Assembly: GCA_019448385.1 (NCBI GenBank) | Contig: JAGTXO010000015.1 | Location: 744,001 to 808,000, forward strand | Reading direction: 5' to 3' | DNA length: 64,000 nt | Source: Diacronema lutheri | Taxonomy: Eukaryota > Haptophyta > Pavlovophyceae > Pavlovales > Pavlovaceae | Shown: positions 12,546-49,011 of the stretch, piece by piece | Layout of the letters: every line of letters starts with the position of its first letter | How positions within the stretch are numbered: the stretch's first letter is position 1 | The notes under the pieces: model-generated | Told to the model about the DNA's origin: nothing | The model's input: only the letters and a program-made list of their open reading frames with translations | Database searches by the model: none | Made by a program: the position numbers and the translations under genes

Positions 12546-12639
<94 letters not shown>

Positions 12640-15145: not shown

Positions 15146-15317
15146 CGAGCGGTCGCTCGCGGAGTCCTCGGCAGCTGCGAGCAGCCGCCGCGCTTCGGCG
15201 CGCGCTTGGTGCAGTATCCCGAGGGCGGAGGAGGATCCCCAGTGGGGGAGAAAACACGGCTCGCCCGCTCAAAACTTTCGGGCGTCTCCCAGCCCGGTCG
15301 GTTACTACCGCCGCGCG
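15146..15317. promoter_or_regulatory. Divergent promoter, MFS / IQ-PLAT genes
   Basis: 172 bp between the two divergent ATGs. No recognised element apart from GC-rich sequence. Confidence 0.35.
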
Positions 15318-27969: not shown

Positions 27970-28136
27970 CGGCCTGCACAGACTCGAACGCGTGCGTAAA
28001 CTCGAGGCGTTGCAGGTGGCGAGCACGTGAGTTCGCGTAGGAGGTCTTGTACTCGGTGGCCTGACTGTCGACCGACGAGAGCTTGGGCGAGTTCGGCGGC
28101 ACGTTGGCTCACTTGGGCTCGGTGCGCGGCTCTGCC

Positions 28137-28169
<33 letters not shown>

Positions 28170-29110
28170 CTTCGGACTCGCTGCCCGGCTCTGCCTGTGC
28201 GGGCGCGATGCACTCGGACTCGATGCCCGGCTCTGCCTTCGTGGGCGCGGTCGCGGGCACGGGCGCGCCCTCGACCCCGTCGCGGTTGAAGACATCGAAC
28301 TCGACGCACACGCCGTGGTCCTTGAAGTCGGTGGCCTCGCTGTCGTTCGCGTAAGCCTCGGGCGAACTCGCAACGAGCGACGACATCTCGGCGTGGAGCC
28401 AGCACATCTCATGCTGCACCGCGTGTTCAGGTTCTCGAGCGCTCCGTTGAAAGAGTCACTCTCACCGAGGCGCTCGCTGCACCACACCAGATAGCCATCG
28501 AGCTTGTGAGCGTGCTCGTGCGCCCGTGCGAGGTCCTTGGAGAGCGCGTCGGCGCGCGCGCACATGCCGTCGCATGACTTGGCCGGTGTCATGCTGTGCT
28601 TCCAAGGCCTGGTGCTCGGCGTTGAGCGTGTCGTGATCCTCGCGAACGAGCTGCAACCAGCTGCAGCAGCCGCGCGACGCCGCTGTCGCCGACGATGCGC
28701 TGGAGCATGTGGCCCATGAGGTGTGCGCGGCACGTGGCGAGCGCCACATTTTTGCGCAGCAGCGCGAGGATCCGGGCGCCGCGGACGAGCCGGCCCATGC
28801 ACTTGAGCGCGTAGATTCGGCCGCACATGCACGCGCCGACGACCGAGTCGGCGGGCCCGCCGTCGAGCCAAAAGTTGGCCTCGGCCGCATCGCGGCGGCG
28901 GGCGACGCGCTGAAGGATGCGCACGCGGTAGTGCCGGTCGACGAGCAGCTCGTCGCCGAAGATCTCGTCGGGCAGCAGCTCGGAGACGTTCTGGGGGTAC
29001 ATGCTGTGCGAGCGTGCACGCGACGAGATCTCGTCGGGCGTGCCGTCCGTTCGTTCAGAGCAGAGCGCGTCGGACCGGCAGACAGACGATGCAGCGCGCG
29101 AAGGCACCTG
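27970..29110 (-). pseudogene. Decayed, frameshifted coiled-coil gene of unknown family
   Basis: Protein-like sequence on the minus strand continues only by changing frame at least three times. One frame (29050-28650) reads MYPQNVSELLPDEIFGDELL and ALKCMGRLVRGARILALLRK. The next (28660-28590) reads REDHDTLNAEHQALEAQHDT. A third (28590-28440) reads ADALSKDLARAHEHAHKLDG and WCSERLGESDSFNGALENLN. A fourth (28419-28080) reads HEMCWLHAEMSSLVASSPEA and FKDHGVCVEFDVFNRDGVEG. There is no room for introns at the switches, so I call it a pseudogene (or sequencing indels). It lies next to mobile-element debris and may be part of an old element. No family recognised. Confidence 0.45.
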
Positions 29111-29420
29111 CGGCGCGCGGCGTGGCCTCGCGTGCCGTCACGAAGCCGCCTGCGCGCACTGCGGAGGCGGCGAGCGCGACGAGGGCGGGCGCGGACGAGG
29201 TGCTGAGCGGCGTCACGTACGCGCCCTCGCTCGCCGAGCTCGACGCCGCGGCGCTGACGATGCGCGCGGCGTACCACACCGACCGCCCCTGAGACGATGC
29301 GCGGCGCCCGCGGAGGACTGGTCCGTTGGCGCGCAAACCGTGGGCGAAAGGGCGCGAAGCCAACGGCCGTCCGCGCACGTTCAAACGCGCGCATACGGGT
29401 GGCATCCTCCCACCTTCGGC

Positions 29421-29505
29421 GCCGCTTTCTAAAAGGGTGTAGGGTGTAGGGTGTAGGATGCAAAACAAGCCCTCCCCACATTTGGGCCCGACGTCATTCC
29501 TTCTT
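29421..29505 (+). repeat. Left 85-bp inverted repeat arm
   Basis: Exact reverse complement of 29649-29733. Begins GCCGCTTTCTAAAAGGG and ends CATTCCTTCTT. Confidence 0.9.
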
Positions 29506-29648
29506 CGAAGCCGTGACGTTACTCACATACGAGTACCTTTACTTAGTGTAGGATGTATCTATTCTCTAGGTATTTGCATAGTGTAGGGTGTAGGATACGT
29601 ACGGTTATGAAAGTCCCATAGGGGGGAGAAGGAATGACGCTGTGACGA

Positions 29649-29733
29649 AAGAAGGAATGACGTCGGGCCCAAATGTGGGGAGGGCTTGTTTTGCATCCTA
29701 CACCCTACACCCTACACCCTTTTAGAAAGCGGC
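29649..29733 (-). repeat. Right 85-bp inverted repeat arm
   Basis: Exact reverse complement of 29421-29505, including the three CCCTACA heptamers. Confidence 0.9.
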
Positions 29734-29883
29734 GGCGCCTCGGAGCATGGCGGCTCGACAGCATGGCGCCTCGACAGCATGGCGTCGTCCAGCGTCACGC
29801 CGCGTCGTGGTCCTGCCGCTCCTCCGTGGCGCACGGATGGCGCTCCTCCGTGACGCAGCCGAACGACGCCGCGGCGTCACGGC

Positions 29884-31440
29884 CCGGGCGCAGTCGCCAT
29901 CCTGGACGCCACGGATGGCGAACCGGTCGACGAGATCCGGCACGAGGACGTCTGCGCCATCGCCACGCAGCTCGACTGCGTCTACACGGGGCTCACGGGC
30001 TCGATGTTTGGCACCAAGTGGAACGTGTGCGGGGTCATGCTCCCGAAGCGCGCCGAGCAGCGGCCGCAGCCCGGCTCGGACGCCTTCGCCTCGTACAGCG
30101 TGGCCGCCTGGGCCGACACGTTCGACTCCACGGGGCTGTACGTGCCCGACGAGCGCGAGCGCGCGGCGGCGCTCGCGGCGGTGGCCGGTCTGCGCACGGC
30201 GCGCGCGCCGGCCGGGCCGGGCGGGCGCGAGCTCGCGCGCGCGCAGGGCTACGATCGCGCCGAGCAGGCTGCGAGCGCGGCGGCGGCGCGCGCGGCGATG
30301 GCCGAGACCGGCCAGCAGCGCGCGCTCCACGGCGCGGTCGTCGACTCGGCGCTGCGCGGCGTGGGCGACCGGCTGCACTTTTGCGACGCGCCGGGCGGCA
30401 CGGGCAAGACGTTCGTCGAGCGCGCCATCATCGCCGCCGTGCGCGCGGATGGGCACGCGGTCGTCGTGTGCGCGTCCTCGGGCGTCGCCGCCACGCTGCT
30501 GCCCGACGGCCGCACCTTCCACTCGACCTTCAAGGTGCCCGTCGGCGCCGACTCGGACGGGCAAGCCGTTCAATGGCGTGCCGCGCTCCGAGCGCGGGCG
30601 CTCCGTGGCCGCCGCGGCGAATGATCGTGGGGGACGAGGCGCCGATGCAGAAGCGGGGCCGCCTCGACTCGCTCGATCGGTGTTTGCGCGACGTGACGGG
30701 CGTCGACGAGCGCTTCGGCGGCAAGACGTTGCTGCTCGCCGGCGACTTTTGCCAGTGCTTGCCGGTGGTGCGGCGCGGCTCGCGCGCGCAGATCGTGCGC
30801 TCCTGCCTCGAGTACTCGGCATCGTGGCAGCACGATCGGCCGTACGCCTTGGTCGAGAACTCTCGCGCCTCGAACGCGGCGCGCGACACGGGCGACGCGC
30901 TCGGCGCGGGCGAGTGGGCGAAGCTGCCGCGCAGCCTCGGCGACGGCGCCTTTCCCGCGGCGGTGCCGCCTGCGGGGGCCATGCCCGGCGCATTCCCGCT
31001 CGATCCCGTGCAGCTGCCCGAGGCGTCTCGGCCTACCCGGCGGAGCTCGTAGCCACTCGCCTCCTCTCGCTCGGCGAGGGGCTGTGCAGCGGCACGCGGC
31101 TGGTCGTGCGCGGCGTGCGCGCCGGCGGCCGGCTGCTCGAGTGCGCGCGACCCGGCGCGGCCGCCGGGCGCGACAGCACCGTGCTCATCGCGCGCATCGG
31201 CCACCACTCGCCCGACGAGGGCACGTTCGCGTTTGCATGGCTGCACCGCCAGTTCCCGGTGCGGCCGGCGTAACAAGGCGCAGGGTCAAGCGCTCGGGTG
31301 CGCGGGCGTGTGGCTCGCCGAGCCGTGCTTCACGCACGGCCAGCTCTACGTGGCCGCTTCGCGCGTCGGGCACGCGTCGCGCATCCGCTTTGCGCTTGGC
31401 CCGGACCCTGTGACGCGCACCGTCGTCTTCAAAGAGGTGC
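29884..31440 (+). pseudogene. PIF1-type helicase relic (Helitron/PIF1-like), frameshifted
   Basis: Helicase blocks appear in the right order but in three frames. Walker A is at 30388-30411 (CDAPGGTGKTF), followed by CASSGVAATLLPDGRTFHST. Walker B is in another frame at 30621-30650 (IVGDEAPMQKRG) with GGKTLLLAGDFCQCLPVV. A third frame (31060-31275) reads GLCSGTRLVVRGV and WLHRQFPVRPA. A fourth (31275-31430) reads NKAQGQALG and CFTHGQLYVAASRV, the last helicase motif. The 30540-30620 interval is rearranged. This order matches PIF1-like helicases of mobile elements rather than cellular Pif1. No Rep or Helitron-N domain is seen. The frame changes make it non-functional unless unrecognised introns rescue it. 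Confidence 0.7.
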
Positions 31441-33160
31441 TCCGCGCGGTCAGCGGTGGCGAGGCGGCGGCGGCGGCGGCGGCGTTCGCCGCGGCCGCCG
31501 TCGCCGCCGCGCGCGAATGCGCGGCGGCGGCGCGCGGTGGCGGCGGGCGCGGCGGGCGCGGCTCGGACGGCGCGCGCGGCGCCGGCGGCGGGCGGCGCGC
31601 TGGCGGCGGGCGCGACGCCGGCGCGCGGTGCTGCCCAGCACCCGCCGGCGCGACGCCCGCCGCGCCGCTCGCGGCCGACGCGCAGCCGGCGGGTGCTCGC
31701 CAACACCGCGCGCCGCGCGACTGGCCCGCGTACCTGCGCGCCCTTCTAGGGCGCGCAGGGCGGCGCCAATGCGGCCGGCAAGCAGGGGCCTCAAGCCGGC
31801 GCGCTGCCCGACGCCGCGTGGGTCGCCGCCGCGCGCGTGCCGTCGGCGCTGCCGCCGTCCGGCGTCGCGCTCGCGCCGCTGCCGCAACCTCAGCCGCCGC
31901 CGCCGCCGCCGCCTGCCGGCAAGCAGGGCAAGCGCGCAGCGGCGGCGACGGCGGTGCGCGGCCCGGCGAGCAAGCGGTAGCGGTGCCGCCGAGCCGGGGG
32001 CGGGCTCCGTGGGCGACGCGGCTTGGCCCGCCACTCGCACCACTCGCGCCGGGCGCGCACAACGCGCCGTGGTCCGCTGCGTGGCCGAGCGAAAATGCGG
32101 TCCTGGCTGCGGGGCGGATCCGACACGCCATGCGGGAGAGGCCGTACAGCGCGTGAGCTTGGGCCCGTGATTTATTACTCATGGATTTATTACTCATGCC
32201 ATGGCGTCGCGCCACGATTACGCCCGTGGCCCCGGCCGCCAGCCTCGCGCCGCTACGCCGTGTCGTCGCGGCCGGCGCACACAGCGAACTGTGTGTCCGC
32301 GGCACATGCCCGGCTGCTCGCGAGCTGCAAGCTTGCCGAACTGCTCGCGCTAAAATGGCGCGTTGCGGGCGTGCCCGCGCACCGCGCGTATGTTCCGCGC
32401 GTTCCAGGCGCGCCGCGCCGCGCGCCGAAGCGGCGCGCGGCGCACGTGCGGCCGCGAGCCGAAGAGGGGCCGGCGCGACCGGCCGCGAGGCAGACGCAGA
32501 CGCTCGGCGTGCCGGTCGACGCGTCGTCCAAATCCGCGTCGGGCGGATGCGCGCCTAGGCCGGCGCTGCGTGCAATCGGCGCGGGTCGCCGCCGCATGAC
32601 GAAGCATGCTTCCATCCGGTGCTCGGCCACGCGCTCGGGCGTAACGTTCGCGCCTGTTCGGCCGAGGCGCACTCGCCGTCCCCTCGCGCCGGCAATGCGC
32701 GTGCGTGCCAGCACGCCGGCAGCGGAGGATGCCACGGCAGCGGCGAGCGGGTCCCCGCCGGTGTGCCGCTCGGCGCCCCGTCACGCGCAACGCGCGCGCC
32801 GCCCGCTGAACGCGCACAATTGCCTGGGCAAGATCGTCCCGCGCTCACGCCGCCGTCGCATCGTTCCATGCATGGCGCCCGGCTCGTCCGTACCGCTTTC
32901 GGGCAGTGCCGCGACGCCCTTTTTCAAAGGCGGGTGCCGCGCTGATTCGTCATCGGCCACCATCCATCTGGCCCTCTAAAGCCGGTTTGCGCGTGGGCGC
33001 CCGTCCGGTGCGAGAAGCGGCTCGCGTCCTCGCGCGGGGCGCCTCCGCGCCAGGCGCCCGGCGCGCGCTCGTCTTGCCGCGCCACCACGCTGATCTGCGC
33101 CCAACCCTCGCTCGCCTATTCCCCCGTCGTTTCTGCTGCGTAGCCCGCAACAGCGCGCGC
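31441..33160. other. Low-complexity region without confident gene
   Basis: About 1.7 kb of GCG/GGC-rich sequence (31440-31640 is Ala/Gly/Arg low complexity) downstream of the helicase relic. Open frames exist in several phases but none shows a recognisable domain. It contains a 15-bp AT-rich tandem duplication at 32169-32198. It may hold 5' exons or the promoter of the giant gene that follows; I cannot identify them. Confidence 0.4.
32169..32198 (+). repeat. 15-bp tandem duplication
   Basis: GATTTATTACTCATG occurs twice back to back in otherwise GC-rich DNA. It could be a target-site or promoter duplication. Confidence 0.8.
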
Positions 33161-36100
33161 ATGACGCGTGCACGGCGCAGCGCCTGGAGCAACTTCCGAG
33201 TCGTCGGCCGGCAGCCTGTGGGGGGCGCGTTCATCGGCCCGATGTGGCCGGTGAGAGTGCCCGACGTGCCGCGTGGTGAGCGCCTGCACGGCTCGCCGGG
33301 TTCGGCGCGTTCCCAGTCGGCCTCTCTCCGACCCGCCGTAAACCTTGCGTGCGCACCCCGCACACCCGGCGCTGCGCGGCGCGGCGCAGGCGTGAAAAAC
33401 GAGGGCAACGCGTGCTACGTGAACGCCCTCGCGCAATCGCTCGTCACCTTGAACGTGCTCCGTCCGATGCCCCGCTCCGCTTCGCGCCGTGCGGGAAGAG
33501 TCGAGAAGGCGCTTTTTCGGGACTTTGGCACGCTGCTCGAGGACACCGAGGCGCCGGCACAGCTGTGTCTTGTGTCCGTCGTCGACGTCATCTTGGGCCG
33601 TGGCACGCGAGGGACGCAGCAGGACGCTGCTGAGTTCTTCCAGATGCTACTCGGCCGAGTGCCCGGGCTCGCTGCTGCCTTCGAAGACGACAGACGCGTA
33701 GTGCTCGAGCCGATCGCTGTGGCCTCGAGCGAGCGCGGTGAGGGCATCGCCATCCTCGTCAGCATTGGCGGCGATGCGGCGCGCACGCTCGCACACGCTC
33801 TGGGGGGCGTCGCTGGGCCGCCGCAGGGTGGCAGCCCGGACGCGTGCCGCTCGGACGTGCTCATGCCAGCCAGCATTGCCGTCGAGGTGCCGCGCACGAC
33901 GCGCGGCAATGGCTCGCAGTGCAAGAACAAGCACGCGTTCGTGTGCGCGCCGCGGCTGCTACTCGGCGGGCGCGACTACCTCCTCGTCGCCGCCGTCGTG
34001 CACTTGGGCGAGGAGTCGACGAGCGGGCACCTTGTCGCCATCGTGCTCCGCAACGGGGCTTGGTTTCTGTGCGACGACGACAACGTGCGGCGGCGCGCAC
34101 GGCCGCTTGGCGCCGCGACCGGCGGTTGATCGCAGCCGCAGCCGCCCCGTCCTCCCGCGCGGCACGCGCGCGTGGCCTGAAAGCTCGCGCCGCGCGCCTG
34201 CCGCACGCACGCGCGTTGCCCGCGCAGATGCACAACTTGTCTCAGTCCGACGCGCTGGCGTGGGCAAGTGGTGCGAGCATGCTCTTCTACAGCCGGCTCG
34301 ACGCGGAACCGTTGGACCCGGCGCTGGGCTCAGCGTCACCGCCGTCGGCCGCATCGCCTGCGTGGCCGAGCTCGGCGCCCGACGCGCCGACCCTGTCGGC
34401 AGCCTGGTCGCGGGTGCGGCAGATGGCAGCGGTGCCAACAGATGCGACGATCGGCATCGCGGAGACGGCTGCAGACACCTCTGCGGCGGCGATCGGCCCA
34501 GCTGCGTGCGAGGCCCGCCAAGTTGTCTCCGCGACGCGCGCATTGCCAATGGCGGTGAGTGCCTCGCACGCGCACGCCGTCCGCTGTCCACAGCGTGGCG
34601 CCCGGCGCTTGCGTTCGCGCCAGGTAAAGTTTGCGCGTATAGCGTGCAGCACCCTCACGCATCCCCTACGCCTCCCGCCCGCCCGACCTCTTGCCCGCCG
34701 GCCGCGCGCAGGACCAGCGCACGCCAATCGTTGGGCGCGGCCAAATCTGGGCATGCGCAAATTTTGAGCCGGCAGCGGAGGGCGGGGATGCGCAGCACAA
34801 CTGGCGCAAGCGCACGTGGTGCCCGCAGCACGAGCAGCGCGAGCAGCGCGAGCAGCGCGAGCAGCGCGAGCAGCGCGAGCAGCGCGAGCAGCCCTGGCAG
34901 CCAGCGCGGCCAGGCCTCGGCGCGGGCGCTGGCGTTCGGCCCGCTGCTCTGCCGCCGAGCCATCCGCGCGCCAGCATGCGCGCGAGCAACCGCTTCGAGC
35001 CGCTCTTGTTGGCCGAGGCGGACGTGCCCGCCACCGAGCCCGCCGCCGCCCAGCCCGCCGCCCAGCCCGCCGCCGAGCCCGCCGCCAAGCCAGCCGCTGC
35101 CAAGCCCACCGCCGAGCCCGCCGCCCAGTCCACGGCCCAGCCTCCCACCGTGCCTGACGCCAAGCCAGCCGACCAGCCCGCCGTCAAATGCGCTGCCGCC
35201 AAGCGCGCTGACGACCGCATTGCTGCCGCTGAGGTAGGCGCCGTCGCCGCCACGCTTGCCGCCGCCACCGAGCCTGGCGGCGTTGCCGAGCTCGCCGCCG
35301 CCGCCGACGAGGGCTGCAGGGCGCGTGCCGACGCGCTCGCCAAGCGCGAGACCCGCCGCGCGCTCCACCGCGAGCAGCTTTTTCGCGAGGACAAGCGCGC
35401 GGCCGGCCGCCTGATCGAGCAGTGCGCGCTGGGCTCTGCGGACGATGCAGCGCGCGCGCGCGCCCTGCTCGAGCGCGTCAAGGCGCGTGGCCACGCGCTG
35501 CCTCCGCACCTGCTGCGGTCGCTGCGCGACCTCGCGTCGCCGCGGCTCGCGCTCGCCGCTGAGGCGGCGGGCGTGCTCGCCGCGTCCGAGATGGGCGAGG
35601 CGGACGCACCTGCGGAGGCGCGCGCGCTACTCATGCACGCCGAGGCCGTGGGCGCCCACCTGCCCGCGCACACAGAGCTCGCGCTGCGCCGCGCCTGCAT
35701 CCCCACCGCCGAGCAGGCGGAGCTGCTCGCGACTGCGCGCGAGCTGCTCGCGCCGCGCGACCCCGAAGGCTCGGTGGCTCCGGCGGGCGCGCGTGCCGAG
35801 TGCGACGGCGCCGCGCTCGGCACTCGCGCGCGCGAGCTCCTCTCGCGACTCGACGAGGCGCACCTCGACGTGCAGCCCTGCATTGCGCGGCAACTGCGCC
35901 GGCTCGCCGCCACCGAGCCAGACGCAAGTTCGAGCGCTGCGCTCGCCGCCACGCCCGGCACCGCCGGTCGCGCGGCCGCCGAGCCGCGGCGCGCGTGGCG
36001 CCCGCGCGGGTGGCGTCTCGCGGTAGGCGCAAAGGGTGCGCGCGCGCGCGCGCGCGCCGCGGCTGCTCCGCTCGACACGGCGCCGCCCGCGGCGGCCGGC

Positions 36101-37941
36101 GCCGTCCCGCCGCTCGAGCCGCAGCCCGAGCGCCGTGCAGCCGACGCCGCGGCCGCCGCAGCGGCGCCGGCGGCCGGCGACGACGGCGTGGCACGCGCGC
36201 TCGCAGCCGCAGCGCGCGGCGACGGCCTCGACGGCGTCGATGGCGCCGACGACCTCGTTTGCGCGCCGTGCGACCGAGGCTGCGCGCACGCACGCGACGG
36301 CGGCTGCTGCGAGCCTGCCGCGCGCAGCTCGCCCGACCAGTGCCCGCGCGCACCGCCGCGGCGCGCACGGCGGGCGGCAAAGCGCGCGCGCGACCGGCTG
36401 CGGAGATCAATCGACAGGTCAGAGCGGGCTGTCGGCCGCCGATTGCGTGGCGGCGACGCGCGCCGCGAGCGCAAGCGCAGGTGCGCGACGGGCGGCCAGC
36501 ACGCACCGCAGCCGCTCCGCCGCGCGAGTCGCAGCCCGCCGTCGCGCACCGATCGGCCCTCGGCCGAGCATGCCGCCGAGCCTGCCGCCGAGCCCGACAG
36601 CCCCCACCGCCGCCCGTGTGCCGGTGCCGCCGTCGCCGTCGCCACTGTCCGGTGCGCCGTCGGCATCTTCGCGAGTGTCGTCGCCGCCTCTGCCGTCCGG
36701 GCCGCCATTGCTCCGGCCGCTCGCCCGTCTGCAGCCACCGCCTTTTGGCTCGTCGCCGTGTGCTCGGCCGCCGCATGGGCCGCCTTCGCCTCCGCCGCCC
36801 GCCCGACCGCCGCCTTGGCCGCGCCGCAGCCTGCCACGCAATCGTCGGCCGCCGAGCCCACCGCCGCCGCGCCAGCCCCCGCCCAGCCCGCCGCTGCCGA
36901 GCCAGCCGCTGCCCAGCCCGCCGCGGCCGAGCCCGCCGTGGCGCAGCGCGACGTCCAGTCCGCCGCCCCGGCGCTGCTCGCGTGGGCGGGCGACGCGGCT
37001 GCGCTCCGGCTGGCCGATGCCGCCGCGCGCGCCGGCATCCCGCAGGCAGAGGTGGACTGCATTGCGGGCGGCGACATGCTCGCCTCCACTGTGGACGCTT
37101 GCTGCGAGGTCGTGCTGCGCGTGCACGGGCAGGCCGGCGAAGGGCGCGTCTGCCACGTACCGCTTGCCGCTCAGCCCGCGGTGTTCCAGGACGGCGCCGA
37201 GCGCGCCGCGCTGCTGCACCGCCTGCACAGCGAGGCGACGACGCAGGCGGTCATCGGCATGTGGAGCCCGCCGGGCGGGCGCGGCGGTGCGGGCAGTGAC
37301 GATGGCACGCCGCCCGCCTCCGGCCATTTCACCGCGTTGCGCCTCGTGCGCGTCGCGCGCGCGGGCGAGCATCGCTACGACGCGGTGCTTGTCGACACGC
37401 TCGCGTCGCCGAGCAGGCAGGCGCTCAAGCGTGCCAGGTCGATAACCGCCACGCTGCACGCGGCGGGCCTCGACGTCTTGCCCGTGCGCCGCGCGCGGCT
37501 GCTCGACAACGCGGCGCAGCGTGGCGCGACGTGCGGCCTCGCCGTGGTGGGCGCGCTCAACGACGCCGCGCTCGCTGCGGCGGGCGGTGCATCCGCGCCG
37601 CGCACGTTCAGCGTGGCGGACATGTACGCTGTTGGCGAGCACCTCCGCGTCGCGTTGACTGGCGCGGTCAGCGGGCGTGCGCCGAGCGGCGCCTGCGCCG
37701 GGGCGGGCGCGGTGCGCGGCGGGGGCAGCCGCGATCGCGCTGCCGAAGCGCCGCGGCAGACGCGCGGCGCCAAGGCCGCCGCAGACGCCGCCGCCGCTGC
37801 CGCCGTTCCGCCGCCGCCGCCACCTCCGCCGCCCGCGCTGGGCGCCGCCGCCGCCACCACCACCGCCGCTGCCGCTGCTGCCGCCGCCGTGGCCGCGCCG
37901 CCACCGCCGCCACCGCCGCCGCGTGCCGGCGACGAGGGCGA

Positions 37942-37989
<48 letters not shown>

Positions 37990-40900
37990 GCGCACGTTCT
38001 TGAGGCTCGCGCCCAGGGCGCGCGCGGCCGCCTCGGCGCGTGAGGCGTTGCGCGCCGCGTGTGCGCGCGCGGACGCGGCGGCGTCGTCACACGCGTCGGC
38101 GCCGCACGCGCCCGCCGGTGCGCGCCGCCGGCGGCGCGCGGGCGCAGGCGAGCTGGCGCTCGCGGCTGCGCGCGCGCTCGCCTCGACGGAGCACGGCGAT
38201 TTGACGGACGACGCGCTCGAGGCCGCCATCGAGCAGGAGCTGGGCGACGAGCGCGGCCAACTGCTGCTGTGCACGCGGGGCGCAGCGGCGCAAAGGCCCG
38301 CGCTTTGCCGGCTCCTGAAGCACGCGTGCGCGTCGGCGCGCGCGGCGAAGCGCGCGCAATTCACGGTGTTCGTCGTGCGCGCGCCCACGCGCGGCGAGCG
38401 GGGGGGCGCCGCCGCGACGCGCGTGGACTCGGTGGTCGAGCTGTCGTGCGCGCTGCACGAGAAGGCGGGCGCGCTCGGCGGCCTCCAGAGCGTCTGTGTG
38501 CGTGGCTTTGCCCTCGAGCGCCGCCGGACACTCGACGGTGGCGCCGAGGCCGGCGCGTCCGCCATCGGCCAGGACGAGCAGGTCGAGGCAGAGGCGGGCG
38601 AGGCGTGCGTCGCCGGCGTGACGATGGCCAAGCAGCTGCGTCAGTTTGCCGAGCAAGCTGCCCGCGACGACGTGCTCTTCCGCGTCGCCGTGTCCGAGGC
38701 CGACGCCCACGCCCGGCTGGCGCGCGTTGCGGGTGACGATGTCGGCGCGTACAGCGTCGTGCTCGCAGTCGCCGGGCTCGTCTGGCTGGCCAAGGCCGAC
38801 GAGGTTGCGCCGGCGGCCGCCCAGTCCGCCGCCGCGCCGCCCGCCGCCCCGCCTGCTGCCGCCACGTCCGCCGACGCCGAGCGCGACGCCTCGCCTTCCG
38901 ACCGCCTGCGCGCGCTGACGCTCGCCGTGCGAGTCGCGCTCGCGCGCGGCGTGCTGCGCCACCTCCTCGCCGACGCGTCGCCGGGCGCGTCCGCGACCGC
39001 TGGCGGTAGTTGCGCGACGCCCGTCGAGGCGGCCGCGTCCGACGCCGCGCCGCCCGCCACGGGCGTCGTGACGAGTGGCGTCGCGGCGGGCGCTGTGGCG
39101 GCCGCACCGGCTGCTGCGGGCGGTGCGACGGCGGGTGCATCGCCCATCGCGCGGCCGGCGAAGCGCGCGCGGCGCACGCTCACCGCCGCTCCAGCCGCCT
39201 CGGCCGTTGCGGCCGCTGGAGGCGCACGCGCTGGCGCACGCGGCGCGGCCGGCGCGCCTCGCGCGCGCGCCGCGCGCGCGCCGGCCGAGTACGTCTGGCT
39301 TGCCATCGCGCGCCGGATGCTGGCGGCGCGACACGCGGCGGCCGCGGGCGGCGACTTTGTCGCGTCGTGCGTCGCCGCGATGCAGGCCGAGTACGGCGAC
39401 GGCTGTGCCGTCGTCGTCGGCGACGCGCCTGGTGACGCCTTGGTCGAGGCTGCGGCGGCGGCGCTGCTCGAGGGCAAGCACGCGGCGGTGAGCCTCGGCT
39501 GCGTCGACCGGCCGGCGGTGCTCGTCGTGCAGCGCGCCGTGGATGCGCCCACGTCGCGCGTGCACGGGTGGTGCGCGCACGCGGCGGGCGCCGCCGAGTT
39601 TGACGAGGGCGCCGCGCGCGACGTGTTCAACGCGATCGTCGAGCGCGCGTGGGCGCTGCGTCCGGACCCGGCCGACGGCAGCCCGCCGCCCACGCGCACG
39701 TGGGAGGTCGGGCGCATCGCTGGCGACGCGCCCGACCAGGCGGGCGTGGCCGCGCTGCGCGTGCTCTACGCGCTCGTCGCGGCGCACGGCCGCTACCGCT
39801 CGGCCGCCGCGCTCTTTGGCGCGCTCGCGCAGCTGCACGCGCCCGACGCCGCCGGCGCGCGCGCGGAGGTCGTCGCGGCGGCGTGCGCGGTGCCGCCCGG
39901 CGCGCGGCCGGGCGCCGCGCCGGCGGCCGCGCGGGACGACGCGAGGGAGCGCGCATGGGAGGGCGCTCAGATCGCCGCGCTCGCCGTCGGCGCGGACGCT
40001 GCGCGCAGGCGTGTCGCGCCCGTGCGCGCGCTCGTCGACGCGCTCGGCACGCCACCGACCTCGGCGATCACGGGCGGGCCGGCGGTCCGGCTCGCGGGCG
40101 CGGGCGACGGCGGCCACGGTGTACGGTGGGTGGGCGAGCAGGCGGCGACGCCCGCCGAGCAGCTGCCGAGGGAGCTGCTGCGCGCCTACCACGAGGCGGT
40201 GCTGTGCGTCACGCCCGGCAGCCTCCAGCTCGGCCCGGCGGCGCTCGACGCGGTCACGCGGCCGCGCGAAAACGACACGCTGGAAGGCCTCCTCGCGCGC
40301 GTCAGCTGGCAGTGCGGCGCGAGGGCGAGCACGTGCGCCATGCTCGCCACGTTTTCCGAGCAGGCGGGCACCGGCTCGCGCGTCGCGCTCAAGGCCCTCC
40401 GCACGAGCTCCGACCTGGCCGGGCTGACGGCGGCTGCGGTCGGGCAGCAGGCGCCGCAGACGCCGCCGCCGCCGCTGCTCGTAATGCTCGGCCGCTGCCC
40501 CAGCCCGCTCGTCGGCGGCGGCCTCTTCCCGCCCGACCGCGCGACGGGCGAGCCGGCGGTGCACGCGGCGACGTCCGAGCTCGCCGTCGAGCTGCTGCGC
40601 GACGCGCGCGCGCTGGCCGGCACGGACGGGCGGCTCGTCGTGCTGTGCCTCGAGGCGTCCAACCCGCTCTGGTTCTGCCCCAAGGTGCGCGAGCTCGAGC
40701 TGCCGCGGACGCGGTCGGACGGCGTGCGCGCGTCCGGCTGCACCTGCCCTGCGACGTGCAGCGATGCGCGCGGCGCGGCGGGTGGCGCTGCCCGCGGCGC
40801 ATCGACGCGGCCGGCGGCGCGCGCGATCAACAAGGCGGTGCTCGACCACTTCGTCGCGCTTTTCGGCCGCGAGGGCTTCGCGACCTTTGAGTTTGCGGGC

Positions 40901-43900
40901 GGCGGCGAGGCGAGCTGGCTGTGCGACAGCGCGGCCGGCACGACGACCGTCGCGGCGTGCGCGTCGCTCCCGCCGCGCATGGGCGATGGGCAGCTGGCCA
41001 TCCGGCGGCACACGCTCGGCACGGGCGCCGGCGCGCCGGCGCACGCCGTCGTCTCGCTCCGCGTCGCGCACGTGAGCCACGCCATCCGCCGCGCGGCGGA
41101 CGACGGCGGCGCGCGCGCCGAGCGGATGGCGCGCGCCGCGCGCGCGTTTTGCGATGTGGCGGCCGCGCTGCGCGTCGACGCGATCCTGGCGGAGGTGCCC
41201 GAGGACCGCCCGACGGGCACGCCCTTCCTTGGCGGGCTGCTCGAGTTTTGGAACAAACGCCACGGGAGCTCGACGGCGCCAGCCACGCTCGCGCTCGGAG
41301 ACGTGCGCGAGGTGGCCAAGCGGACGGCCGACGCAGCGGCCGGCCGAGCGGACGAGGTCCCTGCGGCTGGCCGTCCGCAGGTCGCGGCGCGCGCGTGCGC
41401 TGGCGCGATTGGCGGCGGCGCGGGCGCGGCGGGCGCCTCGGACGCTGCGCCCCGTGCACTGGCGGGCGCGTCGGGTGCGCGCACGGACGGCGGCCCTGCC
41501 GACGCACCGCGCCAGCTGGAGAGCCGCTACGGCGAGGCGAGCAAGCTCGACCTACCCCAAGATTCCACTACGGGCTGCGTCCTCGACGCTCGCGAGGCCC
41601 AGGACCGCGCGCGCGTGCCTGCTGCGCCCGACGGCACAGCGCTGCGCCGCGTGCTCGACGCCGTCGGCGCGGGCGCGCCCGCGCAGCGCAGCCCGCGCTG
41701 GCACGACGAGCGATGGGAGGAGGTCACGGGCAGCAAGGTTGGCGACGTCGTGAACGACAACGCCGGCGTCGCGCACGAGACGCTCACCGACGAGTACGTG
41801 CACCGGCGGCGGCGCGAGGTGCGGACCAAGGCGACGACCGCGGGCATCCTCGGCGAGGCCGTCGCGCTGCGCAAGCTGGCGGCCGCGTACGGCATCACCG
41901 TCGTGTGCAACCTGCCGATGGTGCGTGCGGACCCGCACGACAAGAGCGCGCCGTTCGCCTTCTCGCCGGACGGGCTCGCCATCCTCCCCGAAGACAACGA
42001 GCAGGTCCTCGTCGAGGTGAAGACGCTCACCAAGGCGGACGCCAAGGCGCACGAGGACGGGCCGCCGCAGCCGCACCGCGATCAGCTGCAGCTCGGCATG
42101 CACGTCCTCGGCGTGCGCAAAGCGCTCTACGTGCAGTACCTCAGGCACGAGGACCGGATCGTCGTGCACGTCGTGACGCGCGGCGCCGGCTGGCTTGCAT
42201 TCGCGCAGCCGAGGGTGCAGGCCTTCTGGGCGCGCGTCGTCGAGCGGCGCGCGCGGCTCGAGCGCGCGCGCGCCGACCACCCGGCTGCGAGCCGGCGGCA
42301 CCGGCGGCAGCAGACGCCGGCCGGGCCGCCGCTCGTGCTCGCGCTGGACGGGCGCATCCCCGCCGCGCGCGCCGCCGCGCTGCACGCCGTCGCGCACGGC
42401 ACCGCGAGCGCGGCGGCGGTGGCGGCGACGGCGGCGACGGGCGACGCGACGGCGTTGCAAGACGCGATCGCGGCGCTGCGCGCGCCCGTCGGCAATGCGG
42501 CGATCGACAGCGCAGCGCGTGCGGAGCGCGCGGCCGTCGAGCGGGCGATCGCGTACCTCGGGCAGCCGGCAGGCGACGCCGCCGCCCGCGGCACGGCCGA
42601 GGCGGCCGAGGAGGAGAGGACGGTCGACGCCGACATCTGCGCGTTGCTGCACCAGCTCGGCGCGAGCGTGGCGCACGTGCACGTCGAGGACGCGGATTGC
42701 GTCACGCGTGAGCACTGGGGCGGGGCGGTGCTCGCTGCAGCGGGCGACCCGTCGAGCGCCCCCGCCATTTCGAGCGTCATCGTCGCGCACATCGTGCGCC
42801 TCGCCGGCTTTGGCGTCGAGCTCCCGCAGTCGATTCGCGTCGCCCCCAGCACGGCTGACTGGCACGAGGGCTGGCTCGACGTGCAGTGCGTGCTGCTGCG
42901 CACGCGCCGGCGCGGGCGGCGCGACGACGACTTTGTGGCCGTCGTCAGGCGCGGTGGGCGCTGGTTTGCGTGCGAGCCCGGCCGCGCGCGGCGGCTGCAG
43001 TGGCGGTCGGTCCTGCGCCGCGCGCGCGGCGGCGTCGACGGGACCGGCGAGGAGGCGTTCGCGGTCGTCTACGTGCGGCGCGGCGACGCGGCCGGCGACG
43101 CGGCTGGCGACGCGCAGGCCGAACGGGCGCGCGGCGGGCGCGCGCGCAGGCGCACGCGCGGCGGCACGCGCAAGCGCAAGCGCGGCGCCTCCGCCGGGCT
43201 CGAGGCGGCCGCGCCCGCCGGCGCGCCGGCGGGCGCTGCTCACCGCCCGCCCGCCAGGCGTGCCACGGTCGCCGCGCGCACCACGCGCTCTGTGACCGAC
43301 GCGCGGCACTCGGCGCCTGCCGCCACGGTTGCACCTGTCTTCGACTGGCGCGCCGGCCGCCCGCCCCCTGCCGCCGCCGCCGCCGCCAAGCGCGGCCAGG
43401 CGCTCGAGCCGGGGCAGTTCGCGCGGCCGCGTGGGCGCGCGCCATGGGGCAAGGTCTGGGACAGAGTCTCGGGTGCGTGGGCGGACAAGCCGACTGGTGC
43501 TGCCGTCGCCGCCGCGCCGCCGCCGCTGCCGCCCGCCGCCGCGCCGCCGCCCGCCGCCGCGCCGCCGCCCACCGCCGCGCCGCCGCCCGCCGCCGCGCCG
43601 CCGCCCGCCGTCGCGCCGCCGCCCGCCGCCGCGCCGCCGCCGCCGCCGCCACCGGCGGCGCTCGGCCGCCGGCAGCACGTCGGCGCGGGCGGCAGCGCGG
43701 CGGGCCGGCGGCTCGCGGCCATCGCACGGCGGCAGCGCGGCGTGCGCGCGCCGCCGCCCGCCGCGCGCTTCCTCGCCACGCTGCCGCCACCGCCACGCGA
43801 CGGCCTCGCGCGCACGAGCAAGCAGGCGCGCGCGAGGCGCAACGCGGACGGACGGCCGGCGCACGCGCGCGCGGCCAACGCGCGCGCCTTCTACCGCGGC

Positions 43901-46900
43901 GTGGAGCTCGGCGTGCACGCGACGCGCGCCATCGTCGACGCGCGCCACGCCGACCTGCCGCAGGCCGTCTTCGTGGCGGAGGCGCGGGCGATCGTCGCGC
44001 GCTCCGCCGGCGGCGGCGCGCTGCTCGCGCCGGACGACGTGCGCGACCTGTGCGACGCGCAGACGGACGCCGATCGCGCTGCGATCTGGGCGTCGGTGGG
44101 CGCGCACGAGGCGACGCGCATCTTCGCGCTCGTCACGCGCAACGCGAGCTTGGCGGGCGCGGCGCTGCTCGTGCTGCACACGCCGGCGGGCGCGCCGGCG
44201 CGCGCGCTCGGGCTCGTGGCGACGCGCTCGCGCGCGCCGTCGACGGGCGCGCCGCGCGACGCGCACAGGGCGCTGGTGCAGCGGTTGGACGTGCTGATGG
44301 ACGCGATCGCCGCGGCGCGAGGCGCGTCGCCGCTCGAGCTCGAGCTCGCGCTCGCGCCCGAGCCGCAGAGCGCGTGCAACGCGCGTGCGGCCGCGCTGCT
44401 CTGCCTGCAGGCCGTCGCGGACGCGAGCGGCCGTCCCGCCGCTGAGGACGCGCTGGCCGCGCTCGACGACGCGCGCGGCATCGACCGGCACTGCCACGCC
44501 GTCCGGCAGCAGATCGAGGCGAAGCTCGCGTGGCGGCGCGCCGACGGCGCCGTCGGCGTTGACGGCGCCGACGGCGCGCCCGCGCTCGCGCCTGCCGCCG
44601 CACCGCCGGCGTGCGCGCCGGCGCACGCTGCCGGCGAGGCGGCGGTCGACCAGGCGATCGTCACGCGGGTGCGCGACGCGCTGCGCGCGTGGGCGACGAC
44701 TGGCACCGCGCCCAGCGCGGCGGTGCTCGACGACGCCTGCGCCGCGTACACGGCCCGCGCACGCGCGCGCAAGGACGCGCGCACGGCGCTGGGCCCGACG
44801 CGCGCGGCCGAGCTGCTCGCCGCGGCCGCGCGCGGCGGAGCCGACGGGGCGGATGCCGCGCGCGCGCTGCTCGGCGGCACGCCGCGCCTGCTCGTCGTGC
44901 TCCTCTGCGTGCCCGTCGCCGCGCCGTCCGGCGAGCCGCCGCGCCCGGTCGGGCTGCTCGTCGCCGACCGGCCGACGGACGACTCGCGCCCGGCCGCGCT
45001 CGTGCGCTACGACTTTGCGCCGCTCGACGCGGACGTGGCCGTCGCGGTCGGCGCGCATGCCGTCGCGCTGGCCAGTGCGATCTGGCCGCTGCTCGCGGCC
45101 GAGGGGGAGCCGCGGCCATCGCCCGTCGTGCGCTCGCAGCCGCGCGGCGGCGACGATGGCGCGCGTGCGCTCGCAACGTTCGCGTGCCTCGACGCGCTGA
45201 TGACCGCCAGCGTCGGCGCGCACGGCCTCGCGGGCGGCGCGGGCATGCTGCCCGCGCTGGTCGCGCGAGGCGCCGCGGCCGCCCAGCGCGAGCGGCAGCT
45301 GCGCGCGGCCGCCGAGAGGCTGGGCGGCACGGTCGCTGGGTGGCCGGACACGGGCGCGAGCGCGGCGGGCGCGAGCGTCGACGAGGAGGCGCGCACGTAC
45401 GAGGTCGAGGCGGTCGTCGACGAGCGCCGCAAGGCGGGCAAGAAGGTGACGTTCCAGTTCCGGATCAGGTGGCGGGGCTACGACGAGAGCGCCGACACGT
45501 GGGAGCCTGAGGCCAACGTGAGCAGCGACCTCGTCGCCCAGTTCCGCAAGACGCGCGACGAGCAGAAGCGGCGCGCGGGCGTATCGGGCAGCGGCAGCGG
45601 CGGCGCGGGCGCGGCGTCGGCATTGGCGTCGGCGCCGCTTCGCGCGCACGGCGAGTCGGGCGCCGCGGGCAAGCGCGCCGCGGCGGGTGCCGCCGCGAGC
45701 GCGCGCGACGCCGCGGGCGCGCGCGCGCCGAGCGTTCCCCGCGCGCGCGGCGTCGAGCGCGCGCGCGTGGACGAGCCCGCTGCGCCGAGCGCGCGCGCCG
45801 CCGGCGGCGCGACGGCGCGCACGCGCGGCAGCGTGCTCCCGGGCTTCGTGGTCAAGCGCTCGACGCTCAACGCGGGGCCGCAGGCGGTGACGGCGCAGCC
45901 CGGTGCGCGGAAGGAGCTGCGGCGCATCGCGGCGGCCGTGCACAGGCTCACGACACAGGCGTACCGCGTCATCAACAAGGTGGTGCGCGACGAGGCTGCG
46001 GTGGCGAGCGCGCAGGCCGTCGGCGCGGCGTCGGGCGGCCCGTCGACCAGCGTGCACACGTCGACCACGATGGACAAGGGAACCGTCCGTGCGATCTTCT
46101 CGGCCATCGGCTGGCACAAGGACGAGAGCACGTACGGTGCAGCGCCCCGAGGCAAGCCCGCCGAGCAAGCCGCCGCGCAGACCAAGGCGGCGACGGCGCG
46201 CGCCGTCGGCGAGATGGCCGAGGGCGTCCAGCCCGTCTGCGCGGTGGGCCTCACGGAGATCCTCGAGGCGGAGGCGACGCAGGTGTCCACCGCGTGCCTG
46301 ATGCATCCATCGCGCGTCGTGAACGGGCTGCTCCGCGACGTCGTCCGCGCGGCAGTCGAGCGCGACGAGGCGCTCGTCGCGCTGCCCGAGATGCAGCGAA
46401 ACGCGCGCGTGCGCGAGCTGTGCGAGCGGCTGCTGCGCGGCGACGTGGAGGGCGCGCGCGTCGGCTGCCCCGCCGCGCTCGACCGCCACCTGCCCGACAT
46501 GGTCCTCCACAAGATCGACTACAAGTGCACGCCCACGAAAAGGTGGAACTACGACCGGCACACGACGCGCTACTTCCTCGTGCAGATCCGCACCCTGCAG
46601 CACGTGGCCGAGGGGCAGGCGCTGCTCTGCCGGCTCGCGCACATCCACACGCAGCTGACCGGACGGCCGCCGCGGTACAATGTGGCGCCGCTGCGCACGC
46701 ACAATGTGCGCGCGAGGCGTGGCTGCCGCTGCCGCCGCCGAGGGCCCAAGCGCGCGCGCGCCGCCGCCGTGCGCGCCGCCCCGCGGCCAGGTTGGTCACG
46801 CGCCCGCGCGCTCGCGCGCCGCGCGCTGCGCGCAGGTGCCGCGCAACGTGCGCTTCGCCGCGAGCGCCATCTGGGTGACGCTTTCGGATGACGAGCGCAA

Positions 46901-48560
46901 GGAGCTGCGCGCGCGGCTCAAGGCGCTGGACCTGCGCGACCACGATGGCGAGCCGATCAAGTGGACAGGCACAAACGGCAACACCCCGCCGATGTCGGAC
47001 GTGCGCGTCAGGTACGCGGTCTTTGCGACGCGCTTCGACATCTCCAACCGCGTCTTCGACTACGCCGGGCGCGAGCGGCCGCCGGCCGATCTGCCGTGGC
47101 ACGCGCGGCGCTCGTGGGTTGGCCTCGCGCCGCTGCCGCGCGTGCCGCTCCCGGGCCGGCAGCCCGTCAAGTCGGTGGTGACAGATGGCGTCGCCGTGCA
47201 CGCCGTCGGGACCGTCCTCGTGCCGAAGGCGCAGGCGCCGGCCGGCGGCTCGGGCGTCCTGCACCGCTGGCGCCGGCCGGACGGGCGCATCGCCGTCGCG
47301 CTCGGCTCCGAGCTGCGGCGGGCGATCGACGTCGAGGCGGCGGTCGTCGTCGCGGCCGACCCGAACATGGGCAACATCACCACCTACTCTGCGCACGTCG
47401 GGCGGGCGGCCGTCTGGCGGCAGTTCACGCAGCGCGCGCGCGCGCGCGCCGCGGGCTTTGCGCGCGAGACGGCCAAGACCAACGCGGCGCGGCGGCGCGT
47501 GCGCAAGGACGGGCGCGGCGAGGAGTTCAGCGTGGAGGCGGACGAGGCGCGGCTTGGCGAGGCGCACAGCGCCAAGGTGCTCGGCGAGGGCGAGTTCCAC
47601 GCCTTCCACCGCGAGAGCGCGCGGGTGCGCGAGCGCGCCGCCGAGCACGTGTACGACGCGCCGGCGCGCCGGAAGGAGCGCTGGCGGCGCGACAGCGGCG
47701 GGCGGTCCAACGCGGCGCGCGTCGCCGAGGCGCTCATCGCGGCGCACTGTGTCGACGGCGTGACGCGCGACCGGCTGCTCGTGTGCGTGGGCAAGTGGCT
47801 GCGCGACCACAAGGGCGCGCAGCCCAAGGGCGCGCCGCCCGCCTTCCAGGTGGGGCTGCTGCGCGAGCTGCGGCGGCGCGGCGTCGCGGCCGTCTTCGTG
47901 CCCGAGCCGTACACGTCGATGCACTGCTCGATGCCGCGGCTCGCCAAGGGCGGCAGGCTGCAGCGCTGCGGCGCGGAGCTCGCGCAGAACCCGCGCCTGC
48001 CCGTGGCAAAGGGCGGCACGCGCACGGTGCACGCGCTCGTCATCTGCCCGGCGTGCAACGGCGGCAAGAAGCCCGTGCACCGCGACTACAACGCCGCGCG
48101 CAACATCTTCTACGACGTGCACGACATGGCGGCGCACGCGGCCGGGCGCGACACCACGTCGACGCCTGAGCGCTTTGCCCTCGTGCTCGCCTGGTGGGCG
48201 CGCGGCGAGGTGTGGGAGCGTGAGGAGCGCATGGTGCACGGCGAGGGCGACGACTGCGACGACGAGTGCGACGGCGACGACGAGGGCGACGACGAGGGCG
48301 ACGACGACGACGACGACGATGGCAGCGGCGACGGCGGCGGCGGCGAGGGCGACGGCGACGGCGACGGCGACGGAGGCGGCGGCGGCGACGACGACGATGA
48401 CGGCGGGGGAGGCGGCGGCGGCGACGGCGGTGGCGACGACGGCGGCGGGCGCGGCGGCGGTGGCGGCGGCGGCTCTCGCGCCCGCACCCCCGCCCGCGGA
48501 GCTGCCAGCGCCAGTGCCGGCGGCGGCAGCGCGCGCGGGCCGAAGCGCGGCCGGCGTTGA
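33161..48560 (+). CDS. Giant multidomain element protein: USP protease - Ulp1-like - YqaJ nuclease - chromodomain - Fanzor
   Basis: Reconstructed as four exons: 33161(?)-34084, 34228-34623, 34712-46705 and 46836-48560, about 5,012 residues. All junctions are phase 0. Introns: GTGCGG...GCGCAG; GTAAAG...GCGCAG (a GTGAGT donor at 34555 is an equally good in-phase alternative); GTGCGC...GCGCAG. Each splice joins halves of a recognisable domain: the USP core across intron 1 and the Fanzor core across intron 3. Domains in order: USP cysteine protease, Pro/Ala/Glu low-complexity linkers, Ulp1-like protease, YqaJ exonuclease, degenerate UCH-like segment, chromodomain, Fanzor RuvC nuclease, acidic Asp/Gly tail and basic end (GPKRGRR). 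The ATG at 33161 is a guess; a 139-bp intron ending at 33389 with an upstream exon is possible. The product resembles a self-contained mobile-element protein acting in the nucleus. No known element with this full architecture comes to mind. Confidence 0.7.
33390..34300 (+). other. USP-type (C19) deubiquitinase domain of the giant protein
   Basis: Cys box GVKNEGNACYVNALAQSL (catalytic Cys codon 33413-33415), QQDAAEFFQMLL, and His box YLLVAAVVHLGEESTSGHLV (catalytic His 34028-34030) with W-F-L-C-D-D-D-N supplying the acidic residue. After the 143-bp intron 34085-34227, MHNLSQSDALAWASGASMLF-Y-S-R gives the usual end of the fold. The catalytic triad is intact. It is compact (about 255 residues) with no obvious zinc finger, so it is a minimal USP. 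Confidence 0.8.
34832..34894 (+). repeat. 9-bp tandem repeat encoding (EQR)n
   Basis: GAGCAGCGC repeated six times plus one variant copy, in frame in exon 3 of the giant gene. Confidence 0.9.
36950..37610 (+). other. Ulp1/C48-like cysteine protease domain of the giant protein
   Basis: SGHFTALRLV (His 37325-37327), YDAVLVDTL (Asp 37394-37396) and DNAAQRGATCGLAVVGALN (Gln 37517, Cys 37532-37534) occur in the H-D-Q-C order and spacing typical of Ulp1/SENP and similar viral or transposon proteases. A SUMO or ubiquitin-like target is inference. Assigned by catalytic pattern only; overall similarity is low. Confidence 0.5.
41680..42190 (+). other. YqaJ / lambda-exonuclease-like nuclease domain of the giant protein
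   Basis: SPRWHDERWEEVTGSKVGD opens the domain. GILGEAVAL (Glu 41855), FSPDGLAIL (Asp 41969) and LVEVKTLTK (Glu 42014 and Lys 42020) form the PD-(D/E)xK core, and HRDQLQLGMHVLGVRKALYV follows with the conserved Gln. All expected catalytic residues are present. The family resects DNA ends 5'-3' and supports strand annealing. It occurs in phages, large DNA viruses and some eukaryotic DNA transposons. Confidence 0.85.
42830..43085 (+). other. Degenerate UCH/USP C-lobe-like segment
   Basis: WLDVQCVLLRTRR, DDDFVAVVRRGGRWFACE and EEAFAVVYVRR imitate the last strands of a USP fold (the region that normally contains the catalytic His), but no His is in place. It may be a ubiquitin-binding pseudoprotease or a chance resemblance. 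Confidence 0.35.
43520..43660 (+). repeat. CCGCC/GCCGCCG imperfect repeat encoding Pro-Ala linker
   Basis: Units of 18 bp encoding PPPAAA are repeated about seven times, between the YqaJ and chromodomain regions. It is probably a flexible linker. Confidence 0.8.
45385..45570 (+). other. Chromodomain of the giant protein
   Basis: YEVEAVVDERRKAGKKVTF (from 45398), FRIRWRGYDESADTWEPEAN and a C-terminal helix DLVAQFRKTRDE match the chromodomain fold, including the aromatic positions Y, W and W of the methyl-lysine cage. Chromodomains occur in chromoviral integrases, where they direct integration to heterochromatin. A similar targeting role is inferred. Confidence 0.82.
45890..48150 (+). other. 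Fanzor (TnpB-like RuvC) nuclease domain of the giant protein
   Basis: The N-lobe (45890-46705) includes MHPSRVVNGLLRDVVRAAVE and RYNVAPLRTHN. A 130-bp intron (46706-46835) joins it to VPRNVRFAASAIWVTLSDDE. RuvC I is VVVAADPNMGNITT (Asp 47358-47360). RuvC II is AAVFVPEPYTSMHCS (Glu 47904-47906). RuvC III is VHRDYNAARNIF (Asp 48084-48086). Four cysteines (in HCS, RCG and CPAC) suit the zinc-ribbon insertion. The D-E-D triad is complete. Known family members are RNA-guided DNA endonucleases encoded by eukaryotic transposons and giant viruses. Guide RNA use here is inferred. Confidence 0.82.
48250..48480 (+). repeat. GAC/GGC low-complexity repeat (acidic tail)
   Basis: Encodes a roughly 75-residue Asp/Gly tail after the Fanzor core. 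Acidic tails often mediate protein contacts; the function here is unknown. Confidence 0.8.
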
Positions 48561-49011
48561 CGCACGGCCGAGCCGCGCAGCGGTCGACGCTTTGCGGGCT
48601 CTGCCCAGGTCGCGCGCGGCTGGCGACGCGTGCCGCGCGCGGCACGACCGTGCACGCCGCCACCCGTGGCCGAGCGCGCCGCACCAGCCGGCCCGCTCCA
48701 ACCGCCGTGCGGATCACGGACGCTCGCTACGGCTCGTCGGCGCGCGTCACCTGCGCCGGCGGCCACGGCGCCGTCTGCTCCGGCCTCGTCGCGAGCAGCC
48801 CGACCGCTGCTCGCCGCCCGCACGCCGCCGCAGCAACGCTGCGCGTCGTGCTCCCCCGCTCGCCAAACGCGAAGAGCTCCCTCACAAGGACGTCCTTCCG
48901 AACGGCCCGCGCTGCACTCGGGGCGCGATCGTGCCCCTGATCGGATTTGGCTTGACCATCTATACGGTGCGCAGGTCTGTCAAGTCGCGCGCGCCGCTTC
49001 ACGGCGCGCGC
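48561..49011. other. Region downstream of the Fanzor exon; candidate element end / guide-RNA region
   Basis: 451 bp without a supported gene. It contains a 16-bp palindrome GTGCCGCGCGCGGCAC (48630-48645) and an 8-bp-stem hairpin at 48791-48814. A 10-bp-stem hairpin, GCGCGCGCCG-CTTCA-CGGCGCGCGC (48987-49011), lies directly against the RABIF stop codon. In known TnpB and Fanzor loci the guide RNA overlaps the 3' end of the nuclease gene and the element's right end, so this is where to look. Assignment is inference. Confidence 0.35.

Follow-up and report, generated by a model that had tools for sequence, protein, structure and literature searches.

The window analyzed herein, a stretch of 64,000 nucleotides from the haptophyte alga Diacronema (Pavlova) lutheri, contains a predicted giant gene that forms only part of a larger repeat (positions 27419-48965; Table 1). 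In the spliced translation of positions 33161-48560, four exons with GT..AG borders join in phase into 5,012 codons plus a stop, as the initial annotation had described. Along this frame lie a USP-type deubiquitinase domain, a region resembling YqaJ/lambda-exonuclease-type nucleases, a chromodomain and a Fanzor nuclease, while the 5' part of the repeat carries the remnant of a PIF1 helicase. The genome searched here comprises 43,492,796 bp in 103 contigs, the longest of which, C9, measures 3,042,068 bp; the published assembly is described as 103 contigs, 43.503 Mb, 73.25% GC and a longest contig of 3.042 Mb (PMC8379373).

Table 1. Features of the giant element (window positions, unless a contig is named).
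Feature	Position	Strand	Evidence or remark
Window locus	G000:C29:744001-808000		Host D. lutheri
Whole mobile element, 21.5-kb class	27419..48965	+	Both ends from copy comparison
5' end	27419..27453	+	TATATA(C/G)GGCGCGGTCCGGG...
18-bp perfect palindrome GTACGACCCGGGTCGTAC near 5' end	27465..27482	+	Sequence
89-bp inverted repeat arms with TGTAGGG runs	29417..29737 (arms 29417-29505, 29649-29737)	.	Sequence
PIF1 helicase remnant	30380..30956	+	Broken across frames, shortened relative to 31-kb copy
Exon 1	33161..34084	+	USP-type deubiquitinase; UCH 6.4e-14
Exon 2	34228..34623	+	End of USP domain (34228-34290) and linker; UCH on joined exons 1.2e-16
Exon 3	34712..46705	+	3,998 codons: linker, unassigned regions, YqaJ, chromodomain, putative N-terminal part of Fanzor; open frame
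H..D..Q..C pattern	37319..37591	+	Read by eye as Ulp1-like; unsupported
YqaJ / lambda-exonuclease-type nuclease domain	41699..42106	+	PF09588 0.015, TIGR03033 6.7e-6
Chromodomain	45398..45550	+	PF00385 (Chromo) 5.7e-12
Exon 4	46836..48560	+	Fanzor RuvC/zinc half and Gly/Asp-rich tail; motif and alignment with relatives
Cas12f1-like_TNB zinc domain	47868..48107	+	PF07282 1.7e-6, over Pfam cut-off
3' non-coding end	48561..48965	+	...GACCATCTATAC; candidate guide-RNA scaffold, by analogy with other Fanzors
31-kb copy	C29:1-31032		Copy of longer class (L011, L012, L033, L034)

Profile searches bore out the USP domain, the chromodomain and the C-terminal Fanzor of the initial annotation. On the joined exons 1 and 2, the Pfam UCH match continued across the junction to profile position 254 of 254, and with the catalytic residues read by eye, deubiquitinase activity is predicted. 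In exon 4, beyond the zinc domain, we recognized the pattern D-X(125-275)-[TS][TS]-xx-C4-X(5-50)-RD as D175, TS360, C364/378/404/407 and RD416, which is the motif of Bao and Jurka, located in the C-terminal half and common to Fanzor and TnpB (PMC3627910). Three database relatives align to exon 4 at 43-50% identity, one of them (P0004) without the C-terminal part. The end of exon 3 we take, by eye, to be the putative N-terminal half of the Fanzor. The YqaJ exonuclease stood in part: two profiles of this type match the region, but both scores lie below the curated cut-offs, of Pfam for PF09588 and of NCBIfam for TIGR03033 (26.3 bits vs 68.05). The proposed SUMO-protease-like domain (Ulp1/SENP, Peptidase_C48) gained no support, as the region returned no Pfam match and no PDB sequence relative. 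Searched against the PDB, the Fanzor and YqaJ regions gave no significant match (best E 0.35), and a defence-system library matched the protein only with Csx1 (E 0.0065) and Cas12f (0.0099), both at the zinc domain. The same genome also harbors a second, distinct Fanzor-like family (C1:154701, L002; C9:378667, L005; and about 12 other places), the copies of which score equally, at about 44 bits, to PF07282.

The claim of a single fusion protein is supported for the YqaJ-type domain, the chromodomain and the putative start of the Fanzor, all of which lie within exon 3. The open frame holding this exon runs to 4,082 codons, compared with at most 2,229 codons for the longest open frame in 200 sequences generated by a second-order Markov model of equal composition. 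When related copies were compared for in-frame stops between these domains, the stretch upstream of the intron 3 donor was open for 3,459-4,518 codons in eight of nine copies and stopped at 411 codons in the ninth (C3). In a tenth copy, C9b, this donor was not found in forward orientation; C9b holds an inverted internal stretch (G000:C9 about 423110-427351, L027) matching window positions 42616-46859. Intron 3 (46706-46835) has the same borders in nine of ten copies, and since its length varies by 2 bp (128 or 130 bp) while exon 4 stays open in those nine, the pattern fits splicing. A EukProt P. lutheri sequence (P0005) matches positions 40340-41614 at 424 of 425 residues. Substitutions among copies, sorted by codon position, have no clear third-position excess, and this uninformative test therefore does not indicate that the frame has been under selection since the copies were amplified. 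From these sequence comparisons, we would place YqaJ-type nuclease, chromodomain and Fanzor in one predicted chain, with the USP perhaps joined through the putative intron 2.

Intron 2 (34624-34711), which is defined by its consensus sites, is the sole link between the USP and the remainder, and it leaves a real, if less than even, chance that the USP is a separate two-exon gene, that one protein exists only for YqaJ-chromodomain-Fanzor, and that the 5,000-residue fusion reflects a guess about splicing. Specifically, the USP frame stops at 34767 if intron 2 is left unspliced, with the exon 3 frame already open from 34643; the homologous frames of the 31-kb copy, for USP and for YqaJ-chromodomain-Fanzor, lie about 10 kb apart, with further long frames between them; and the EukProt P. 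lutheri sequence P0006, for which RNA or genomic origin is not stated, runs unspliced through intron 1 (window 33161-34126). The joined reading draws instead on the intron 2 donor, CAG|GTAAAG, a good consensus site, and on the partial NCBI model KFE25_005282 (P0008), possibly ab initio, in which the USP exon is connected to frames that lie downstream of it in the 31-kb class (element positions 15171-15413 and 15547-15612). The join at intron 1 (34085-34227) recurs identically in three NCBI D. lutheri gene models with related USP pieces (P0008-P0010). Two of these, the annotated proteins P0009 (KFE25_007150) and P0010 (KFE25_009289), have C-termini that include fragments of the element's USP exons.

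The gene had been regarded initially as the mobile unit, and our genome-wide comparison upheld its mobility while revealing that the true element is larger. All 38 scored places (of 2,694 candidates) start at window positions 27414-27426, which sets the 5' boundary at 27419. At the 3' boundary, 48965, similarity stops after ...GACCATCTATAC in six other internal copies, chosen by their zinc domain, with unrelated DNA beyond, and a 400-bp 3'-end probe was 100% identical at 40 places (the best 40 of 282 candidates). With up to three mismatches allowed, a genome-wide search with 28-nt end patterns counted 220 matches for the 3' end and 240 for the 5' end (from 27426), against none for either reversed control. 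Some 220 copies with matching ends imply a recently active mover. When the first 100 listed places of each pattern were considered, 64 of the 3' ends paired with a 5' end, and the resulting copies cluster in length near 21.5, 26.3, 29.2 and 31 kb (14 at 21.4-22.2 kb, the window class; 8 at 26.0-26.9; 8 at 29.1-29.5; 29 at 30.4-31.6; and 5 others). These 64 copies total 1.78 Mb, or 4.1% of the genome, and by extrapolation, 220 copies of the same mean length would make up 14%. The genome paper attributes 22.9% of the genome to repeats, with LTR (32.7%) and LINE (3.8%) elements as the main annotated classes by share of masked bases; the words helitron, transpos and telomer are absent from its main text (PMC8379373).

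The window copy and the 31-kb copy are 99.7% identical over the first 2.4 kb and 98.0% over the last 12.1 kb; between these shared ends, some parts are 87-96% identical, and a stretch of about 10 kb occurs only in the 31-kb copy. At element position 11721-15755, the latter holds an extra frame of 1,345 codons that by eye begins like a protease (H..D..Q..C) and resembles a nuclease in its middle, with no Pfam or PDB match above chance. Before its helicase, we suspected by eye an NCLDV-like single-strand-binding domain, for which Pfam found nothing. On the minus strand of the window, at 28589-29137, a 182-codon frame without a Pfam match appears protein-like by eye and is possibly an exon of a minus-strand gene. 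Many of 32 scored copies also contain the 89-bp inverted repeat with TGTAGGG runs.

At the 5' junction, NTATATA(C/G) precedes GGCGCGG in 30 of the 31 copies read, N being C in 24 of the 31; with three copies added, the pattern fits 31 of 34 (the 31-kb copy in C29 fits, whereas those in C93 and C2 do not). All 3' ends read in the first of these copy sets are CTATAC, although an exact match to the 3' end had served to select most of them, which leaves the six copies picked by their zinc domain as the independent test of this ending. The terminal inverted repeats and fixed target-site duplication of DDE cut-and-paste elements were not seen: long terminal inverted repeats are lacking, with only about 5 bp inverted by eye, and 26 of 27 flank pairs are without a target duplication, their longest shared word being 3-6 bp, as in shuffled pairs. 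The exception, copy C9e, has a 13-bp duplication at its flanks, so the outcome of insertion varies. In folding comparisons, an equal or better fold than that of the 5' end with its palindrome arose in 16 of 200 shuffles; hairpins at both ends, which along with asymmetric inverted repeats characterize Helitron2, do no better here than shuffles (z -1.52 and -0.28); and the RNA fold of the 3' non-coding end has z -1.22.

Empty sites were sought with the joined flanks of 26 copies (9 + 17; C39 and three copies without a 3' flank were left out), and relatives spanning the join were found for four (C27, C40, C4b and C4), these being other copies of the target repeats rather than true alleles and differing from the flanks by several percent. 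Among the relatives listed for C27, 7 of 12 were read (five CATTGAAT, one CACTGAAT and one not alignable), and for C40, 6 of 13 (four CATTAAAG, with two differing). The empty sites are GCTGA-CATTGAAT-CTCTG and ATCA-CATTAAAG-TAAGTG, respectively, from which 7-8 A/T-rich bases are missing in the filled site. Of three relatives read for C4b, one (CGTTA-GTATAAAA-ATTGACC) is compatible with a loss of about 8 A/T-rich bases, at ambiguous boundaries; three relatives were read over the join for C4, and two for C36 did not span it. Five of the 31 copies (C4, C34, C8a, C21 and C4b) have 5' flanks from one shared repeat, near GCG(T/C)C(G/C)TTAGT, which may be a hot spot for insertion.

Among the first 100 listed places of each pattern, a contig terminates no more than about 13 bp from the 3' end of the element in at least 10 cases (C1, C3, C6, C8, C12, C14, C29, C32, C33 and, by its length, C43), and at the 5' end in one (C32). 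We considered and rejected a telomere element, since the first 100 of the 212 TTAGGG places listed include terminal arrays on C15 and C30 and at the far end of C29, and the element, at 31 kb, exceeds the PacBio N50 of 23.5 kb (PMC8379373). These contig ends are thus likely assembly breaks, which do not fully explain the 3' bias.

Canonical Helitrons have 5'-TC...CTRR-3' ends, make no target-site duplication and insert without loss of target bases. The D. lutheri element has a PIF1-type helicase and, in most flank pairs, no duplication, but it deviates in its ends (TATATA(C/G)GGCGCGG...CTATAC), in the loss of target bases and in its lack of a Rep domain, with no HUH Rep (Helitron_like_N) in the element frames scanned or in the element by genome search. 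The second part of the helicase remnant (30618-30956) matches PF05970 at 2.7e-23, while the first part was recognized by eye in another frame. PF05970 was found, frame-broken, in both the window and 31-kb classes, and the break is directly visible in the sequence of three copies (31-kb, window and C96). In line with this break, 148 of 150 places scored genome-wide (of 414 candidates) begin to match the profile only at position 69-104. An intact helicase elsewhere was discounted, as the only two near-full-profile matches of the 150 were C86, which has no blastn similarity to the 31-kb copy, and C96, a broken copy.

The genome's sole Helitron_like_N match (C63:35738-36019) looks broken by eye, and 1.7 kb downstream of it, C63:37687-37814 is 92% identical to 128 bp of the element's helicase region; a search of C63:20001-40000 returned neither of the element's end patterns. 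The same contig also bears degraded fragments of the giant gene, at C63:25491-28061. On sequence grounds, the helicase part is of Helitron origin and the Rep is absent, and because Rep, ends and target are non-canonical, we name the element Helitron-derived rather than a Helitron. The relation of its broken helicase to a relic Helitron argues for a Helitron background, in place of the self-contained new module proposed initially.

Our best explanation, which we hold tentatively and at just under an even chance, is a recently amplified giant DNA element of Helitron descent, without its own Rep, whose main gene unites a Fanzor, a chromodomain, a YqaJ-type exonuclease and perhaps a USP, and which would spread through RNA-guided cutting together with an insertion factor. 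The Fanzor would be programmed by an RNA that arises at the 3' end of the element and includes a guide derived from flanking host DNA, and it would cut matching sites that are without the element. The YqaJ-type nuclease might then prepare the ends, and repair would copy the element in or keep it, as has been proposed for TnpB/Fanzor (PMC10432273). The chromodomain could place the protein on chromatin, and the USP, if fused, may protect the protein from degradation. The insertion step itself would fall to a factor that is supplied in trans or not recognized in the element.

Alternatively, the element may be a self-mobile new type, in which an undetected recombinase or endonuclease in the giant frame (e.g., at 40109-41251) inserts at an A/T-rich core of 7-8 bp. 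The conservation of the giant frame in eight of nine copies points this way, as do the A/T-rich target cores at the two clear empty sites (C27 and C40) within a 73% GC genome and the recent activity implied by the copy number in an assembly with one broken-looking Rep match. Nevertheless, we consider it less likely than the main reading, though a serious rival. In agreement with the initial annotation, no intact transposase turned up in the frames scanned, and neither transposase nor integrase nor Rep families were found there (with Pfam, and with NCBIfam on the four window exons); Pfam likewise matched no tyrosine recombinase domain (Crypton-type) in these frames, although divergent ones could escape. 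Further, the structure prediction for 40109-41251 has a pLDDT of 34.7, and the 13-bp duplication speaks against a fixed outcome. A giant-virus remnant or passenger, integrated many times, is highly improbable: a Mimiviridae paper mentions YqaJ (PMC3620924) and some large DNA viruses carry Fanzors (PMC3627910), but a scan of viral_contigs by conserved short peptides returned no relatives of the Fanzor or the YqaJ domain, the frames scanned hold no capsid or polymerase, and precise ends together with distinct length classes are in keeping with a transposon.

The Helitron-derived reading has partial precedents. Fanzor1 has been described in non-autonomous Helitron2 elements of Chlamydomonas (PMC3627910), which, like the D. 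lutheri element, are multi-copy, algal, non-autonomous and Helitron-related, with 3' ends mostly intact. Unlike the element studied herein, their insertions follow TTTT, and duplications of 7-19 bp accompany many of the copies; the accessible text describes no fusion to YqaJ or a chromodomain, and the D. lutheri element, at 21-31 kb, has other ends and targets. Deubiquitinases (VTD or OTU) are also encoded in Helentron/Helitron elements (PMC9741609), a similar pairing of a Helitron-type element with a deubiquitinase, but those elements have RepHel and an AP-type endonuclease, whereas the D. lutheri element has a USP-type enzyme, no Rep and, in addition, a Fanzor. SpuFz1, which acts with an omega-RNA, is likewise a TnpB/Fanzor-type nuclease, and by analogy, the 3' end of our element could hold such an RNA, although SpuFz1 is the single frame of a locus of about 2.1 kb, in contrast to the giant D. 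lutheri gene (PMC10432273). In Auxenochlorella, the most abundant repeat is an uncharacterized Fanzor element, again a dominant algal repeat, for which the accessible text describes no fusion (PMC12633428). Across the available text of open-licence papers on Fanzor with Helitron, haptophyte, YqaJ, chromodomain, USP or Crypton, no such fusion is reported.

A bolder version, self-insertion by RNA-guided cutting, would have the Fanzor-chromodomain-YqaJ protein cut an A/T-rich motif beside the guide match, the 7-8 bases between staggered cuts being lost and the element copied in without a transposase or Rep. We regard it as improbable; if true, it would represent an RNA-guided transposition system in a eukaryote, occupying an extrapolated 14% of its host's genome. 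In the literature available to us, Fanzors are transposon and virus proteins without such partners. An element of about 220 copies in which a Fanzor is predicted to share its chain with a nuclease for end processing and a reader of chromatin offers a natural setting for asking what the Fanzor contributes to its element. The giant element may account for part of the D. lutheri repeats, and it would also allow the question of whether an element can spread by means of RNA-guided cutting to be addressed in this alga.
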